15,925 nt of DNA from positions 1 through 15,925 of the forward strand of contig WJIO01000110.1 in NCBI GenBank assembly GCA_014730235.1. The letters are read 5' to 3'. Source of the stretch: Candidatus Poribacteria bacterium. GTDB taxonomy: Bacteria; Poribacteria; DTPJ01; WJIO01. The notes below the pieces were generated by a model, which ran no database searches, was not told the origin of the DNA, and saw nothing but the letters and a program-made list of their open reading frames with translations. Of this stretch, positions 8,779 to 15,680 are shown in pieces. Positions within the stretch are counted from its first letter, which is position 1. Each line of letters begins with the position of its first letter. The translations under genes and the position numbers were made by a program.

Positions 8779-9810
8779 TTAAAACTTGGTCAGCAGAGAA
8801 ATTCGGTGGGTGTTACCAAGTTCATGACTTAAGAAGGCATAATCTATCAGAAAATTAAGGCTGGATTCCCCTCTGGCAAAGCCCACATGGAGTCCTGCAC
8901 CGGTGGTAAAATTGCTGTCCTGAAGTCCTGCTCTTAAAGCCAGAACATCACCCAGGACACACTCAAGGCCATATCGCATTTGTAGATCATATCGTGTGTC
9001 TGCATCCACAGATAGAAGCACTTTGCTGCCGATAGCTGGAAGATTGCGTAAATAAGCTGCGCCTATCTTGAGATTTCTGGGGATTACATCTATATGTGAT
9101 GGTGAAGAGGTTGTATTCCAGAATAAACGGGTCTTGGTAAAATCCTGAACCACTATACCCAAGGATAGATCACCAGCATGGTCTTTACCTTCTTCAGAAG
9201 CAAAGCTGGTTCTCCATATCACACCTATATCACCACCAAATCCCACAGCATTTCTTGATATTCCGGATACGGCGTTATATATGAATTTAAAATTTCCTCC
9301 AACCTGAATATATGTGCCAATTGATCTATGGCTTCCCATGGGAACATCCAACCGGATTTTCCTTCCATAAGATAATAATACAGCGTTTTCAGTGTCTTTC
9401 ATATATCCTGTTATATAGGGTCGGTTGGACGCGCTCATGCTCCCGGAACGCTGTAAGTCGGTAATAGGAATTTCATCAATTCCCAGCCTGATCCAGCTTA
9501 TGCCCAGAGATGAAGATTTACTCACCGGTTGAACAAAGTTAAGGAAGTCGTAGCTGTCCAGTCCAAATATACTGGCGTGCATAAAAGTAATCTGGCTTTG
9601 ATCGAATCCACCAATTCCCGCAGGATTCCAGTATGCCGCCGTAGCGTCATCGGCCACAGCCGTAAAGCTGCCGCCCATACCCAAAGGTCGGGCTCCAGCA
9701 CCCAGATTCAGAAATTCACCAGCGTATTTTTCAGCAGCAAAGGATGTTCCTGCTGTTATAAACAGAATTGGGATTATAGTAATTATTATTAATGCTTTAC
9801 GTGATAACAC
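8779..9810 (-). CDS. porV: PorV/PorQ (UPF0164) family outer-membrane beta-barrel protein
   Basis: A 343-aa exported protein. The N-terminus is a clear signal peptide (basic SRK, hydrophobic 7-20, likely cleavage after Ala25 in TSFA-AEK). The mature start carries the family signature: EFLNLGAGARPLGMGG, then ADDATAAYWNPAGI. The remainder alternates polar and hydrophobic residues as in a beta-barrel and ends in an aromatic-containing strand (HRISLLTKF), typical for insertion into the outer membrane. In type IX secretion PorV is a shuttle that presents sorting-domain cargo to the PorU sortase; its position next to a PorU-like gene supports that role over PorQ. GTG start at 9810-9808 with GGAG (9818-9821) 7 bp upstream. 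The family is confident; the exact paralogue is inferred from context. Confidence 0.82.
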   Translation of the reverse strand: MLSRKALIIITIIPILFITAGTSFAAEKYAGEFLNLGAGARPLGMGGSFTAVADDATAAYWNPAGIGGFDQSQITFMHASIFGLDSYDFLNFVQPVSKSSSLGISWIRLGIDEIPITDLQRSGSMSASNRPYITGYMKDTENAVLLSYGRKIRLDVPMGSHRSIGTYIQVGGNFKFIYNAVSGISRNAVGFGGDIGVIWRTSFASEEGKDHAGDLSLGIVVQDFTKTRLFWNTTSSPSHIDVIPRNLKIGAAYLRNLPAIGSKVLLSVDADTRYDLQMRYGLECVLGDVLALRAGLQDSNFTTGAGLHVGFARGESSLNFLIDYAFLSHELGNTHRISLLTKF

Positions 9811-9843
9811 GTTTTGTCTCCGATGTAATATTTACAAAAGTTA

Positions 9844-9961
9844 GTTCTTCCGGGTTTGGTGTGGTTATAATTGAAAATTCCCTCAGCTTGTCATTCCTGC
9901 AAATGCAGGAATGACAGCATAAAGAAGTTTCTTATCTTTACCACACCAAACCCGGAAGAAC
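9844..9961. mobile_element. MITE-like element with 22-bp terminal inverted repeats
   Basis: A 118-bp non-coding element. GTTCTTCCGGGTTTGGTGTG starts the left arm (9844-9865), and its perfect 22-bp reverse complement forms the right arm (9940-9961). The interior carries a second perfect inverted repeat. It has no reading frame of its own and is flanked by 8-bp direct repeats. Small size, long terminal repeats, nested palindrome and flanking duplication fit a miniature inverted-repeat transposable element moved by a transposase elsewhere in the genome. It lies between the PorU-like stop and the PorV-like start. As RNA it would fold into a long stem and could slow or end transcription between them, though there is no T run. 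No second copy is present in this window. Confidence 0.7.
9889..9916. repeat. Internal 13-bp palindrome of the MITE-like element
   Basis: TGTCATTCCTGCA (9889-9901) and TGCAGGAATGACA (9904-9916) are exact reverse complements separated by AA. The core GTCATTCCTGC...GCAGGAATGAC recalls extragenic palindromes common in many bacterial genomes. No T run follows on either strand, so it is not a standard intrinsic terminator. Confidence 0.75.
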
Positions 9962-9968
9962 CTAAAAG

Positions 9969-12900
9969 TTACTTCAATTTCATCATTTTACCCACCTGGA
10001 CAATATCCTCCCGACCTTCGCTTTTGAGTCTGAGTTTATAATAATATACACCGTTTGCCACTTCGTTTCCGTTTTCATCTTTTCCATCCCAGTGTATGTT
10101 TACAAAATTAACCAGGTGTTTTGCTTCCAGAGTTTTTATTAGTCGACCTGATACGGTATATATTTTAATAATACCCTCTTCAGCAAGGGAAGTAAGATGG
10201 AAGGTAATATCGGTTTCTCGCTCAAAGGGATTGGGGTAGTTCATCAAGGTGTCTTTTGTTAGTTCAAATTCTCGCTTTACTACAAATTTCGCCGTCTCTT
10301 CTGTTTGATTTCCATTAAAATCCTGAACACTTAGCATGACTTCATATTCACCGGGTTCCAGTTTTCCAGGCCAGTAATTTACACTTACTTCATTGGATTC
10401 CGCCGTCCAGTATACAGAATATTGATCATCCAGGGCCTGCTGGAATTCGCCCCTATCTCTGCTGATGCTAATCACAGGATTCTGGTTGATTACATCTATA
10501 CCATTATCATCATACAATAGTGCCTGAATGGTAGGTTCCATACTGACAACATCGCCATCGGTAAAGTTCTGGTCACCTATAGTAATGCTTATGGATGGTA
10601 ATTCTACGTCCTTATTTGACATGAGTGTAAATGTTCCGGTTTTATAGACGTTTCCCTGAATAGTGCCTGTAACAAGAGTCTTAAAGCTGAATCTGTCTCC
10701 CTGAACAAAGTTCCTTTCATCCTGAAAAATGGTAAATCTAAACCCAGTTTTAGAATGATAAAATTCCTGCCCTAATGTTCCTATCAGCGGCTGTCCGTTT
10801 ACTTCCAACACACCTGTTTTATCTCCTGTCAATCGGAAATTATCCTGATCGTCAAAGATAATAGTCCATTCATCAATAGGAGTATTAGCATCCTCCTGAA
10901 TAGAAACAGGCCCGATCCATTTATTTATCGGCGTTACCCCTTCCTCAATAATAATCTCGGGAAGAGTGGCGTGTATGCGACGTAAAATATTGCCAGAATT
11001 GTCTAGTTCAGGCTCAGAAGGCACATACACCCATTTTTTTGCATCCTGATTCCATCTATAGATACACATCTCAGAAGTTCTCTCTTTTAACGTTTGTTCA
11101 AAAAATGCTTTTTGATCTGGTTCCATCTGTTCTTCTGGAACTCCAGCCAGACCTATTTCGTTCTTTACGATTTCAGCAAAGGACTCAAAATCAAACCTGA
11201 TTTCTACAGCAGCAGGCCTGGAAAAGGTTAATTCACCGCTATCTGTTACGCTTTCTACAATATAACCATGTCCTTGGTCATCGGGTAATGGTATATAAGA
11301 TATATCAGGTTGATTATTGGCTTCAAGAGATTCTGTTAAATAACTTACTTTAAGTATTTCACGTTTATCGTAAGTGCCAATAAAAGTATTGAAACTGAAA
11401 ACACTATCAAGACTTCTGGTTGATGATTCTCTTGTGGGGCTAAGAAGAACATGGGTCACATTCAAAACAGCAGGATACATATTGTCTTTTTCGCTTCCTT
11501 CGGAATACTGGTTTTCCGGATCTAACCAGAGGAAAAGCTTATATTCTCCCGGAGATAACTCAAGAGGAACGAACACATTAATTATCTTATCATCATCCCA
11601 TAAGCCGGGTTCAAAGTTTGTCTCAGCAATTTTATTTGATCCATTATCAACGTTATTATCATCGTCAACATCTGGGTTTCCCCGGTATATAGCCAATTTA
11701 ATTGGAACTGTTACAGGTAATGTGCCGGTATTCTTAACCGCAACATCAACACCCCATGTCTTAAGATCATTGGAATATGTATATGATATATCAGGACGGG
11801 TCAGATTTGCGATTCTATTTAAAGTCAAATTAGGCTGTGAAGGTAAAGGGAGAGTCTGGCGTTCCAGTTCAACAGTATTACTATCAGTATCCTCAACAAT
11901 AAGGTAATAAACTAACTCACCACCATTGTTGAATAATGGTAAAGGTTTATTCAATGTATATTTTTTGCTTTGTGCGTCATAAATCATATTCCATTCAGAC
12001 CACTCACGTTTCTGTGGACTGATCCATCTCAGGATAATAGATTCTATACCTGAAATCCCGGCATCGTCATCCACTTTCGCATAAAAATTTATACCGTTAT
12101 CGGTAAATTCATGTTCAAGGCTGACAATTGAGGGTTTGTCAACGCTAAATTTGCTCCCGCCTATAGCTGCTTCAACACCACTTTGGCCAAACAGTTTTAA
12201 ATATCCGGTTCCGGATGATATACCCGCAGGAACACTTACAGAAGCTGAATCGTAGTTGTTATTAATCGCATTTACAGTGCTGATTGTTTCTGAACCATCG
12301 GCAAACTCAGCTTTAATTTCTATATTTCCGGTAAAAACTGACGGTCCACTGCCAATCACCCTGGAAACCTCACCGGGCAATATATCCAGACTTTTTCCTG
12401 GCTTTACACTTGTGCTGACTAGTTCCGGCTGAATTTCATATTCCGGTATATTAAGTCTGGAGGCAGGATCACCAAATAAAGTATACTCCTGCATCTGACT
12501 TAGCCATGACATCCCTTCTTTTAAAAGCACCTTTATTTTTGAAACAGCCGTCATTTCACCTATATTCAACAGGTTATCTTTAAATATAGCATCAAACAAA
12601 AACTTATTCAGGGATACATTGCCTGTTCCATAGGTTAATCTGGTTGCGCTTAGCATGGCCACTGATCCGCGCCTGTCCGCCCTAACCATACCTTCGGCCA
12701 TGCTTAACTCTCCCGGCAGATCAAAATAGCCGTTATAGCAGCTAAAAACCAGCAGGAAGGGGAATGTTTGTGTCTCTATCATTGACTCAATATCTGTTAT
12801 ACTGAATACGATTTCATGGGCCCAGACATGACGACCCCCATGCCCGGAATATTGGACAATAATCGGCCCTTTGCCAAAGGCTTCCCTTATCATGTCTTCC

Positions 12901-15680
12901 ACTACATTATTAGGTCTTCGGGTTTCTGTGGGATCTTTTTCTACCTCAGCCAGTATATCTTTAAGGTAAATTTTTTCAGTTTCATAACCCGGGGGAGTAT
13001 GGTATTTCCATATCTCTTCCAGTCCAATGCGGAAAATCTCATCCCCGGCAGCATGGGTATCGTCATCAGCAATAGATACGATCTGCTTACGCCAGGGGCC
13101 GTTTATATCCGATTCATTGGCAATGATTTTATGCAGTACGGATTGGGCCTGGGAAACCTCTTCCACAGGTATACGTCCAAGATATATATCTGGAAATCCG
13201 TCATCACCGTCAATTGCGCTGTACCAGTGATCCGCTGCTGTTTGTCCGAAGGTTGTCCATATATAGAAAGAAGGTATAAATCCTGCTAATTCTGGTGCTT
13301 CGGGATAAAATTCTTCGTTTACACCCAAAAAGTCATAGGTAGCATCAGCCAGTATCAAAACGTAAGATGGAGCAGGATCAAGCCAGTTATGATAAGCATA
13401 GGTCAGAAAATCCTTGATGGCATGAGGACTTACCATACCAAAGCCAAACTCATCATATATATCCGTAACATCAATAACTGATGTCCTGAAACCACCACCT
13501 CTGGGATCGCTCCGCCAATTAGATAACTCATAAGCCACTTCAAGGAATTTAGGGTGTGATATTACCAGATAATCTGCCCTGTTGGATGCCGATTTAAGGT
13601 CCGATGGATAATCCTTCTGGATTCGATCCGGCTCAAGGATATTCCGGGATGATACGGCCAGATATTTCGTATTCCTGCCACCTACATCCTCAAAAGTCAC
13701 CTGATAACCGATCTCCGGTAATTGGGAATTTATAATACTTGATTCACCCAATATAGAATGAATCGTCAGCAATCTTTCCCGATCTTCACGACTGAGGGAA
13801 TATGAACTTATCTGCAAATCTTTAATTCTACTTACAGCGTTAGAACCGCTAAGCTGATATACCTGTATATCAGGATTCAGAAACGAACTTACGTTATAAC
13901 GGGCTATCTCTCTCTCATCCGGATCTTGAGGTTCGGGGGCGTTAAATTCCAGAGTGTCGTTTACCGCCAGAAGCTTACGCAGGTAAGTTATTTTAAACCA
14001 GTTAAGATAAACTTGATATGGATAGCTTTCCTTATTATCGCCATCGGCTGGATTAGAGCCAATTCGGGCAAGACGAAGTTCATTTAATCCCTCCTGTATA
14101 GAGGTAGCGGGGATTTGGCCTTCATAAGAATATATATCCTGCCTTTCCCATTGGGCTTCCTGTCCAACTTTATGACCGTTAATGGAGATCATGATATTGT
14201 GCTCAAAATTCGTACACCCCACAAGCTCGATCTCAAAATCCGGTCGTATCATGCTTTGAGCTAGGTCATATACAGGAAAATCAAGGGTCATCTCTGTTTT
14301 TGATGAGCCATTTTCGATTCCATCCCAGAACCAATGATCCCGGGATTCAAACCACGCATCCGGGTTATCCGGATCAGGTTGGACATTCTGAAGTTTATGA
14401 TGCAGGTGGTCTTCCTCAAAATAATTTACAGAACTGAAAAAGGTAACTTCTCTGGATGTAGGAGATTTTGGACTTCCTGATTTCTGTATCATGCGAAGCC
14501 CGCGCTGTTTGCCATGAATTAACCAGTAAACGTTCCATCGGGAATAAATGCTGTCGGGTTTTATACCGTAGAACTCAATGAAATCCTCAGGATCGAAGCT
14601 TCCATCGGTTTCTCCCTCTATATATACAGGAATTTGCTTTCCATGGAGGGTTATTCTGATATTTCGCGGGTCAATCAGTGCAGGATCTAAATTAGCTCCA
14701 AGGATCATATCATAATTGACCCTGTATATACCCGTCTTTGATACAAATAATTTAACAGCTTCCGAACCTTCCTCGACTGTATATCCCTTTGGTGCGGCAT
14801 ATGTTTGAGAATCGGATTCCCGCCAGTTTTTTGCGCTGTTATAATTGATTAAAATGTTCCTGTATGATTCTTCAAATTTCGGTTCTGTATATTGTTGAAA
14901 GCTATGTGTAAATTCCGATTCACTTGTATTCCTATTATACTTATTATTTCTGGAAATATTATCGGAAAAGTTAATCCGAACCTGTATTCTGGAATGTTTT
15001 TTCAAAACGCCAGTAACTGGATTATACTGCACAGGATAAATTTCGACCACAGCAATGCGTTGATGCCTGAGATTGCCAGTGTATGAAATGGTTGCTAATT
15101 CCTGGGGATAAAGTCTATTATTACGATAAAAACCGGTATCCTCAGAATATTCCTCTGTAAGTGCATCCACATCAGAAGAAGCTGACAATCCTGAATAAGG
15201 CGATATTTTATCAACTATTCGGGGAACAGGTATAGGCCTGTATCCATGAATAGAGGATGTTTGTGAACTTGAAGCATGTATGGATAATAACGCAGACGGT
15301 GGTATACCTATAAAAACTCGCGATACAGGAAGTCTGGGTTTGCCAATATTAGAAGTATACCCGCAGTTTTCATAGGATATAAGGTGATATTGTTCTGCAT
15401 TTACGGTCTTGGTTTTGACAGCAAAATCCCTAAGTTCAAAACCAATTGACACACCTGTATTATCCGAACTTATCAGTTTTACTGGTTGGGCTTGAGTTGT
15501 GTTCAGTGTCAGAGAAAATGTTATAAAGATAGCAAGAAAAACGGCAGGTAGAAGATGCCTCATATTTGATTTTTTAACCTTTGGTCTTTGACGGGAGGGG
15601 TTGGATTCTGATATAAAGTATAAAACTTTACCAACAGCAGGGACAGCTTCAGGGGAAGCAAAATTATGATAAATTTTCAT
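9969..15680 (-). CDS. porU: PorU-like C25 (gingipain-family) peptidase with large modular insertion
   Basis: A 1903-aa exported protein. Domains: signal region; propeptide-like NIGKPRLPVSRVFIGIP (~110-127); PorU-type beta region (~300-700); C25 domain (~720-1075) with ADYLVISHP, LILADATYDFLG, QYSGHGG (catalytic His947), FSCYNG (catalytic Cys981) and TLFGDPASRLN; Ig-like region (~1080-1270); CARDB-like domain (~1281-1414, VDVAVKNTGTLPV); uncharacterised modules (~1420-1690); a domain like that preceding the PorU sorting module (IGDQNFTDGDVVSMEPTIQA); terminal FlgD/sorting-type module with MNYPNPF (~1811) and GVYYYKLRL. Bacteroidota PorU, ~1100-1300 aa, cleaves sorting domains and links cargo to lipopolysaccharide. 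Start: ATG at 15680 has AGGAG 11 bp upstream but puts 39 residues before the hydrophobic segment; ATG at 15563 gives an ordinary signal peptide with a poorer ribosome site. Confidence 0.85.
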   Translation of the reverse strand: MKIYHNFASPEAVPAVGKVLYFISESNPSRQRPKVKKSNMRHLLPAVFLAIFITFSLTLNTTQAQPVKLISSDNTGVSIGFELRDFAVKTKTVNAEQYHLISYENCGYTSNIGKPRLPVSRVFIGIPPSALLSIHASSSQTSSIHGYRPIPVPRIVDKISPYSGLSASSDVDALTEEYSEDTGFYRNNRLYPQELATISYTGNLRHQRIAVVEIYPVQYNPVTGVLKKHSRIQVRINFSDNISRNNKYNRNTSESEFTHSFQQYTEPKFEESYRNILINYNSAKNWRESDSQTYAAPKGYTVEEGSEAVKLFVSKTGIYRVNYDMILGANLDPALIDPRNIRITLHGKQIPVYIEGETDGSFDPEDFIEFYGIKPDSIYSRWNVYWLIHGKQRGLRMIQKSGSPKSPTSREVTFFSSVNYFEEDHLHHKLQNVQPDPDNPDAWFESRDHWFWDGIENGSSKTEMTLDFPVYDLAQSMIRPDFEIELVGCTNFEHNIMISINGHKVGQEAQWERQDIYSYEGQIPATSIQEGLNELRLARIGSNPADGDNKESYPYQVYLNWFKITYLRKLLAVNDTLEFNAPEPQDPDEREIARYNVSSFLNPDIQVYQLSGSNAVSRIKDLQISSYSLSREDRERLLTIHSILGESSIINSQLPEIGYQVTFEDVGGRNTKYLAVSSRNILEPDRIQKDYPSDLKSASNRADYLVISHPKFLEVAYELSNWRSDPRGGGFRTSVIDVTDIYDEFGFGMVSPHAIKDFLTYAYHNWLDPAPSYVLILADATYDFLGVNEEFYPEAPELAGFIPSFYIWTTFGQTAADHWYSAIDGDDGFPDIYLGRIPVEEVSQAQSVLHKIIANESDINGPWRKQIVSIADDDTHAAGDEIFRIGLEEIWKYHTPPGYETEKIYLKDILAEVEKDPTETRRPNNVVEDMIREAFGKGPIIVQYSGHGGRHVWAHEIVFSITDIESMIETQTFPFLLVFSCYNGYFDLPGELSMAEGMVRADRRGSVAMLSATRLTYGTGNVSLNKFLFDAIFKDNLLNIGEMTAVSKIKVLLKEGMSWLSQMQEYTLFGDPASRLNIPEYEIQPELVSTSVKPGKSLDILPGEVSRVIGSGPSVFTGNIEIKAEFADGSETISTVNAINNNYDSASVSVPAGISSGTGYLKLFGQSGVEAAIGGSKFSVDKPSIVSLEHEFTDNGINFYAKVDDDAGISGIESIILRWISPQKREWSEWNMIYDAQSKKYTLNKPLPLFNNGGELVYYLIVEDTDSNTVELERQTLPLPSQPNLTLNRIANLTRPDISYTYSNDLKTWGVDVAVKNTGTLPVTVPIKLAIYRGNPDVDDDNNVDNGSNKIAETNFEPGLWDDDKIINVFVPLELSPGEYKLFLWLDPENQYSEGSEKDNMYPAVLNVTHVLLSPTRESSTRSLDSVFSFNTFIGTYDKREILKVSYLTESLEANNQPDISYIPLPDDQGHGYIVESVTDSGELTFSRPAAVEIRFDFESFAEIVKNEIGLAGVPEEQMEPDQKAFFEQTLKERTSEMCIYRWNQDAKKWVYVPSEPELDNSGNILRRIHATLPEIIIEEGVTPINKWIGPVSIQEDANTPIDEWTIIFDDQDNFRLTGDKTGVLEVNGQPLIGTLGQEFYHSKTGFRFTIFQDERNFVQGDRFSFKTLVTGTIQGNVYKTGTFTLMSNKDVELPSISITIGDQNFTDGDVVSMEPTIQALLYDDNGIDVINQNPVISISRDRGEFQQALDDQYSVYWTAESNEVSVNYWPGKLEPGEYEVMLSVQDFNGNQTEETAKFVVKREFELTKDTLMNYPNPFERETDITFHLTSLAEEGIIKIYTVSGRLIKTLEAKHLVNFVNIHWDGKDENGNEVANGVYYYKLRLKSEGREDIVQVGKMMKLK

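Follow-up and report, generated by a model that had tools for sequence, protein, structure and literature searches.

The 120-bp element that separates the porU-like from the porV-like gene in the window, i. e. the complete stretch of 15,925 bp of DNA from a Candidatus Poribacteria bacterium that was analysed here, belongs to a new family of the well-known bacterial MITEs. According to our preferred reading, to which we assign a probability of about 0.8, it is a non-autonomous MITE which an ISL3-family transposase moved in trans and which inserted on the stop codon of porU, with duplication of 8 bp; the affiliation with ISL3 is an addition to the preliminary description. The preliminary description had proposed a MITE-like element at this position, and had named a single copy with the same structure kept at the junction in distant relatives as the finding that would speak against it. 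The identification as a MITE is borne out by the copy number, by the common ends and core, by the 8-bp duplications, by the intergenic location of all sampled copies and by the junctions in relatives that do not contain the element; the copies and the element-free junctions exclude the contrary finding.

An alignment of 29 copies places the element at positions 9843-9962, without assignment of a strand, and its 120 bp correspond to the dominant length class (the length mode) of the family. The left terminal inverted repeat (TIR; AGTTCTTCCGGGTTTGGTGTGGT, 9843-9865, plus strand; family consensus GGTTCTTCCGGGTTTAGTGTGGT) and the right one (9940-9962, minus strand) are complementary at 22 of 23 positions. 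Because the family consensus ends in GG...CC, the element is taken to span these bounds, an A having replaced its first G. The perfect 22-bp inverted repeat reported initially is contained in these TIRs, its arms at 9844-9865 and 9940-9961 being fully complementary, and the perfect 13-bp palindrome is present as well: its arms (9889-9901 and 9904-9916) make up an inner hairpin, TGTCATTCCTGCA-AA-TGCAGGAATGACA (9889-9916; no strand assigned), the commonest core among the copies of the family. Overall, the two halves of the element (58 nt each) are 78% complementary. No ORF of at least 80 aa in the ORF list of the window covers the element, and there is no Rfam match in the window at gathering thresholds. 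With its 120 bp and its 23-bp TIRs the element lies within the size limits of MITEs (70-300 bp, TIRs of 15-30 bp), and it shares with RUP, NEMIS and ERIC, all of them bacterial MITEs (PMC3733652), these dimensions, the non-coding nature, the high copy number, the intergenic location and the foldback RNA; it differs from them in the sequences of both TIR and core. The four nucleotides in the loop of the core hairpin (9901-9904 in the window) occur in both orientations across the copies (GAAA 14, TTTC 11, AAAA 7, TTTT 6). The flanks of the element keep one orientation, as if the loop of the palindrome inverts in place.

The further copies that the preliminary description had suggested looking for are present in the source genome, a MAG of 5.53 Mb in 451 contigs, in several hundreds. 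Terminal-repeat ends number 504 at up to two mismatches and 555 at up to three, as compared to none and one, respectively, for the reversed control pattern. The core hairpin was found in 393 copies at up to two mismatches in this genome and in none of 19 relatives, and a BLAST search of 57 relatives did not detect the element. In the source genome, BLAST returned 852 candidate places; scoring of the best 40 yielded 93 matches, a number that includes both strands since the element is a foldback. The window copy is about 87-94% identical to the approximately 40 best-scored other copies of the same genome. Paired elements, mostly of 120 bp, were identified 63 times in about 940 kb. The family comprises length classes of 120, 141, about 163, about 186 and about 204 bp, and the longer ones carry enlarged or additional internal hairpins; at L129:6820-7024, a further nested palindrome around GCTTCAAGCTTTTTGAAAAAGCTTGA was observed inside members of the longer classes. 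The first 20 sampled stretches had been picked for containing copies and the 60 later ones regardless of copies, and all copy densities derive only from the latter: their 498.5 kb hold 24 paired elements, plus 33 ends that have no partner, at up to five mismatches. As a rough extrapolation from these 498.5 kb, the genome would contain about 270 complete copies and a few hundred more solo or damaged ends.

The duplications at the target site have a constant length throughout the family. The flanks are identical over exactly 8 bp in 27 of the 63 paired elements, over 7 bp in five and over 9-12 bp in none, and a shifted control with the sequence 8 bp further out gave no duplication among the same 63 elements. 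For the window copy, the duplication in the register of the family (CAAAAGTT at 9835-9842, TAAAAGTT at 9963-9970) matches at seven of eight positions; the direct repeats noted at the outset, AAAAGTTA at 9836-9843 and 9964-9971, are there too, and this register, shifted by one, matches at all eight positions, although it agrees less well with the other copies. AT-rich octamers make up the duplications, and the extended target preference approximates TTA-AAATATTT-TAA. None of 74 elements falls within an ORF of 120 aa or more, as compared to 67% of random positions. Avoidance at the step of insertion and loss of harmful insertions both fit this intergenic confinement, and the two cannot be told apart.

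The porU-like gene (9969-15680, minus strand), which encodes a C25 peptidase with a C25 propeptide and an FlgD-like Ig domain, ends with a TAA codon at 9969-9971, and the porV-like gene (UPF0164; 8779-9810, minus strand) starts with GTG at 9808-9810; in addition to these C25 peptidase/UPF0164 genes, the window carries DUF6785/DUF6784, a gene content that, like the set of relatives, suggests Poribacteria. The porU stop codon overlaps the right duplication in both registers: In the register described originally, the second copy of AAAAGTTA contains TTA, the complement of this TAA, as had been stated. The distance of 30 nt from TAA to GTG that had been calculated for the junction after removal of the element and one repeat is correct and the same in both registers; the present gap amounts to 158 nt. 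A GGAG Shine-Dalgarno-like site (9818-9821), 7 nt before the porV GTG, was left intact by the insertion. Without the element, this junction would read TAACTTTT followed almost directly by TAAATATTACATC. None of the junctions read in relatives, a comparison that had also been suggested, holds the element. These relatives are divergent (the best matches to the C-terminus of PorU are 33-46% identical), and the comparison thus demonstrates a junction that lacks the element rather than a base-for-base empty allele at the nucleotide level. A porV homologue lies downstream of porU in 16 of the 19 relative loci that were read. The exceptions include G001, the only genome of the same order, in which the best porV match is on another contig, and L113, where the locus stops at the contig edge. 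Several relatives have short gaps between the two genes; in L110 and L115, for instance, the first start follows after 11 nt. These short gaps support the idea of a tight ancestral arrangement.

The insertion at the stop codon is genuine, although for this MITE family it is only mildly out of the ordinary. Among 48 element ends that face a stop codon, the duplication reaches the stop in nine, and 13 ends are no more than 10 bp away from it as compared to 8.4 expected (P = 0.03, for one of two cut-offs and with simple ORF calls); the excess disappears at the cut-off of up to 30 bp. Twelve of the 13 stops within 10 bp of an element end are TAA, a codon that accounts for 60% of the stops overall, and start codons are avoided (two ends versus 6.9 expected). 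The preference for AT-rich targets explains landings on stop codons without any special targeting.

From the form of its ends, together with the duplication length, we infer that an ISL3-type transposase is behind the MITE. Starting from a transposase fragment of the source genome, we reached annotated ISL3 elements: one has GGTTCATCCGGCTAAAGCGT ends flanked by the 8-bp duplication CTAATGGT, another one GGTTCATCCGG ends flanked by the 8-bp duplication CATTTAAG, and ten of the first 11 bases of the MITE TIR match the annotated ends (shuffle P about 6.5e-5). The ISL3 elements L214 of Pseudodesulfovibrio profundus and L225 of Vibrio parahaemolyticus resemble the MITE in their GGTTC(A/T)TCCGG ends and 8-bp duplications, whereas they are about 1.3 kb long and carry a transposase gene, as opposed to 120 bp that encode nothing, and their ends diverge from those of the MITE past the first 11 bp. 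A duplication of 8 bp is classical for ISL3 according to a published study, which also reports the AT-rich TTCTTTTT (PMC7643977); the MITE family has the 8-bp direct repeats that are looked for in derivatives of ISL3. Closer to the source genome, degraded ISL3 transposase remnants of the same phylum (L218 and L216) possess the ends GGTTCATCAGACTTAAGTGGGG and TTCATCCGACTTATGTGGGAATGAATCTTGC, which resemble the MITE TIR and are not identical to it. They also share its inner part, -CTTAAGTG/-CTTATGTGGGA, which is of the CTTAAGTG(T)GGG type and which connects them to short elements of the same phylum with the TIR GGTTCTTCAGGGTTAAGTGTGG. These short elements of genome G029, L085 (561 bp, duplication GGTTATTG) and L088 (270 bp, duplication TTATAGAG), are like the MITE in their TIR, which is identical to it at 20 of 22 positions, and in their 8-bp duplications; unlike the MITE, they are longer, have an unrelated interior and are present in few copies.

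The full-length transposon with the same 22-bp ends that the preliminary description had proposed to search for was not found in the 451-contig MAG, nor did we find a complete or internally deleted element that joins exactly these ends to an ISL3 transposase of the DDE_Tnp_ISL3 type. The source genome contains only three ISL3 transposase fragments, one of them with the ends GGTTCATCCGGTTAATGCGTAG, and the end that is known agrees with the MITE TIR at only 15 of 22 positions. All three are located at contig edges, as is to be expected since repeats break assemblies; a complete partner may have been lost to such breaks or may, equally well, be absent from the strain. No match to Zn_ribbon_ISL3 was obtained in the source genome and none to PF01610 in G004 and G029, the genomes with the closest other TIRs. 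The exact TIR does not occur in GTDB genome contigs and IMG/VR, sets to which the source genome itself may not belong. In the first 40 sampled stretches, what followed the unpaired TIRs was short MITEs of other types or ordinary genes, and never a full-length element with the same ends. A TIR pair spanning 2,128 bp on contig C79 was rejected as a transposon: it has no exact duplication and encloses an unrelated gene. The contig L061 (G000:C342), on which an ISL3 fragment resides, has its best relatives in Bacteroidetes MAGs and may be a binning contaminant in the source MAG. In G004, the genome of a relative, the four contigs L082, L086, L089 and L091 end inside an element with the TIR GGTTCTTCAGGGTTAAGTGTGGGAATGAAACTTGC, which suggests an unassembled multi-copy insertion sequence in that genome.

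Other families that leave 8-bp duplications exist, e. g. IS1595 and IS6, and the MITE might have been moved by such a transposase, with the ISL3-like ends being a chance convergence. The missing full-length ISL3 partner and the lack of PF01610 matches in the genomes with the closest TIR variants would be in line with this idea; the agreement with annotated ISL3 ends over the first bases of the TIR and the occurrence of the CTTAAGTG(T)GGG-type inner TIR on the same-phylum transposase remnants argue against it, and we consider it rather unlikely. An origin as a palindromic repeat of the REP/BIME type that a RAYT transposase (tyrosine, Y1) had spread would account for the extragenic location, the palindromic structure and the high copy number. 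REPs, however, have 20-40 bp and GTAG or CGTC tags (PMC3733652), to be set against 120 bp, 23-bp TIRs and 8-bp duplications here, which makes this origin very improbable. The same holds for a native regulatory hairpin or attenuator of porU-porV that is not mobile: Both the very stable predicted fold and the position between two genes of one operon are what such a device would exhibit, but the hundreds of copies elsewhere in the source genome, the same junction without the element in relatives and a flanking duplication like that of other copies leave it hardly credible, and we rejected it based on the copy number and the element-free junctions.

A later retention of the mobile element by selection as a module of 3'-UTRs or operons would add to the ISL3-mobilised MITE rather than replace it as an origin. 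Among 59 copies of about 120 bp, the identity between the arms is 0.866 within elements as compared to 0.848 for re-paired arms (sd 0.0043), and 11 arm pairs are perfect versus 1.8 expected; moreover, the copies cluster directly behind TAA stops, and starts are avoided. On the other hand, the copies have a common ancestry, so that covariation of their arms requires no selection, mismatches between the arms are often non-wobble, and the bias towards stops is weak and would equally result from the AT-rich target preference combined with loss of harmful insertions. Selective retention therefore appears quite unlikely. It is an unlikely reading that a lineage-restricted MITE family of several hundred copies settles just behind TAA stops without truncating genes and re-punctuates operons across the genome with a standard long hairpin whose arms are kept matched in each copy. 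The matching of the arms within copies sits mostly at position 15 (T-T or C-C).

For the ISL3-mobilised MITE, we propose the following course of events: The transposase, acting in trans, would have recognised the GGTTCTTCCGGG-type ends of the MITE and cleaved AT-rich DNA with a stagger of 8 bp. This cut would have hit the TAA with which porU stops, and the 8 bp would have been duplicated upon repair, so that the reading frame of porU still ends at the same residue. The insertion puts a very stable predicted hairpin into any joint porU-porV transcript: On the porU-porV strand, the calculated RNA fold of the element has -73 kcal/mol, whereas shuffled sequences average -25.5 (z = -16.5), and it persists when the flanks are included. 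The hairpin differs from a textbook terminator; its stem is followed by the tail TAACTTTTG. Promoter-like hexamers inside the element are near chance level. Hairpins of MITEs in transcripts are reported to stabilise or destabilise the mRNA (PMC3733652). Because of these published effects and of the strong fold, a partial uncoupling of the two genes, of the kind that the preliminary description had considered, or a processing of the porU-porV transcript is likely. The long hairpin would separate the translation of porU and porV (from 30 to 158 nt) and would most likely serve as an RNase III-type processing site or as a site of partial attenuation, with translation of porV relying on its own ribosome-binding site, which is intact.

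The family, which belongs to an uncultured lineage, is an abundant one, with hundreds of copies in one 5.5-Mb genome and a likely transposase affiliation, and it may account for part of the assembly fragmentation and of the non-coding DNA of this genome. The window copy provides a clean example of how an insertion can hit a stop codon and still leave the protein unchanged. In the case of the secretion genes porU and porV, it appears to represent a lineage-specific change of the operon layout that may affect their expression. A further type of ends, of the form GGCTCATCCAGTTTGGGTGTGG, was encountered at L132:1831 (there followed by AAGTATAAAAAATATTGTCC), L141:7480, L133:1893-2055 and L137:11182-11345. 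These ends are partly found within elements of about 163 bp that have AAAACTTT-like duplications, and they probably define a second family of ISL3-like MITEs within this genome.
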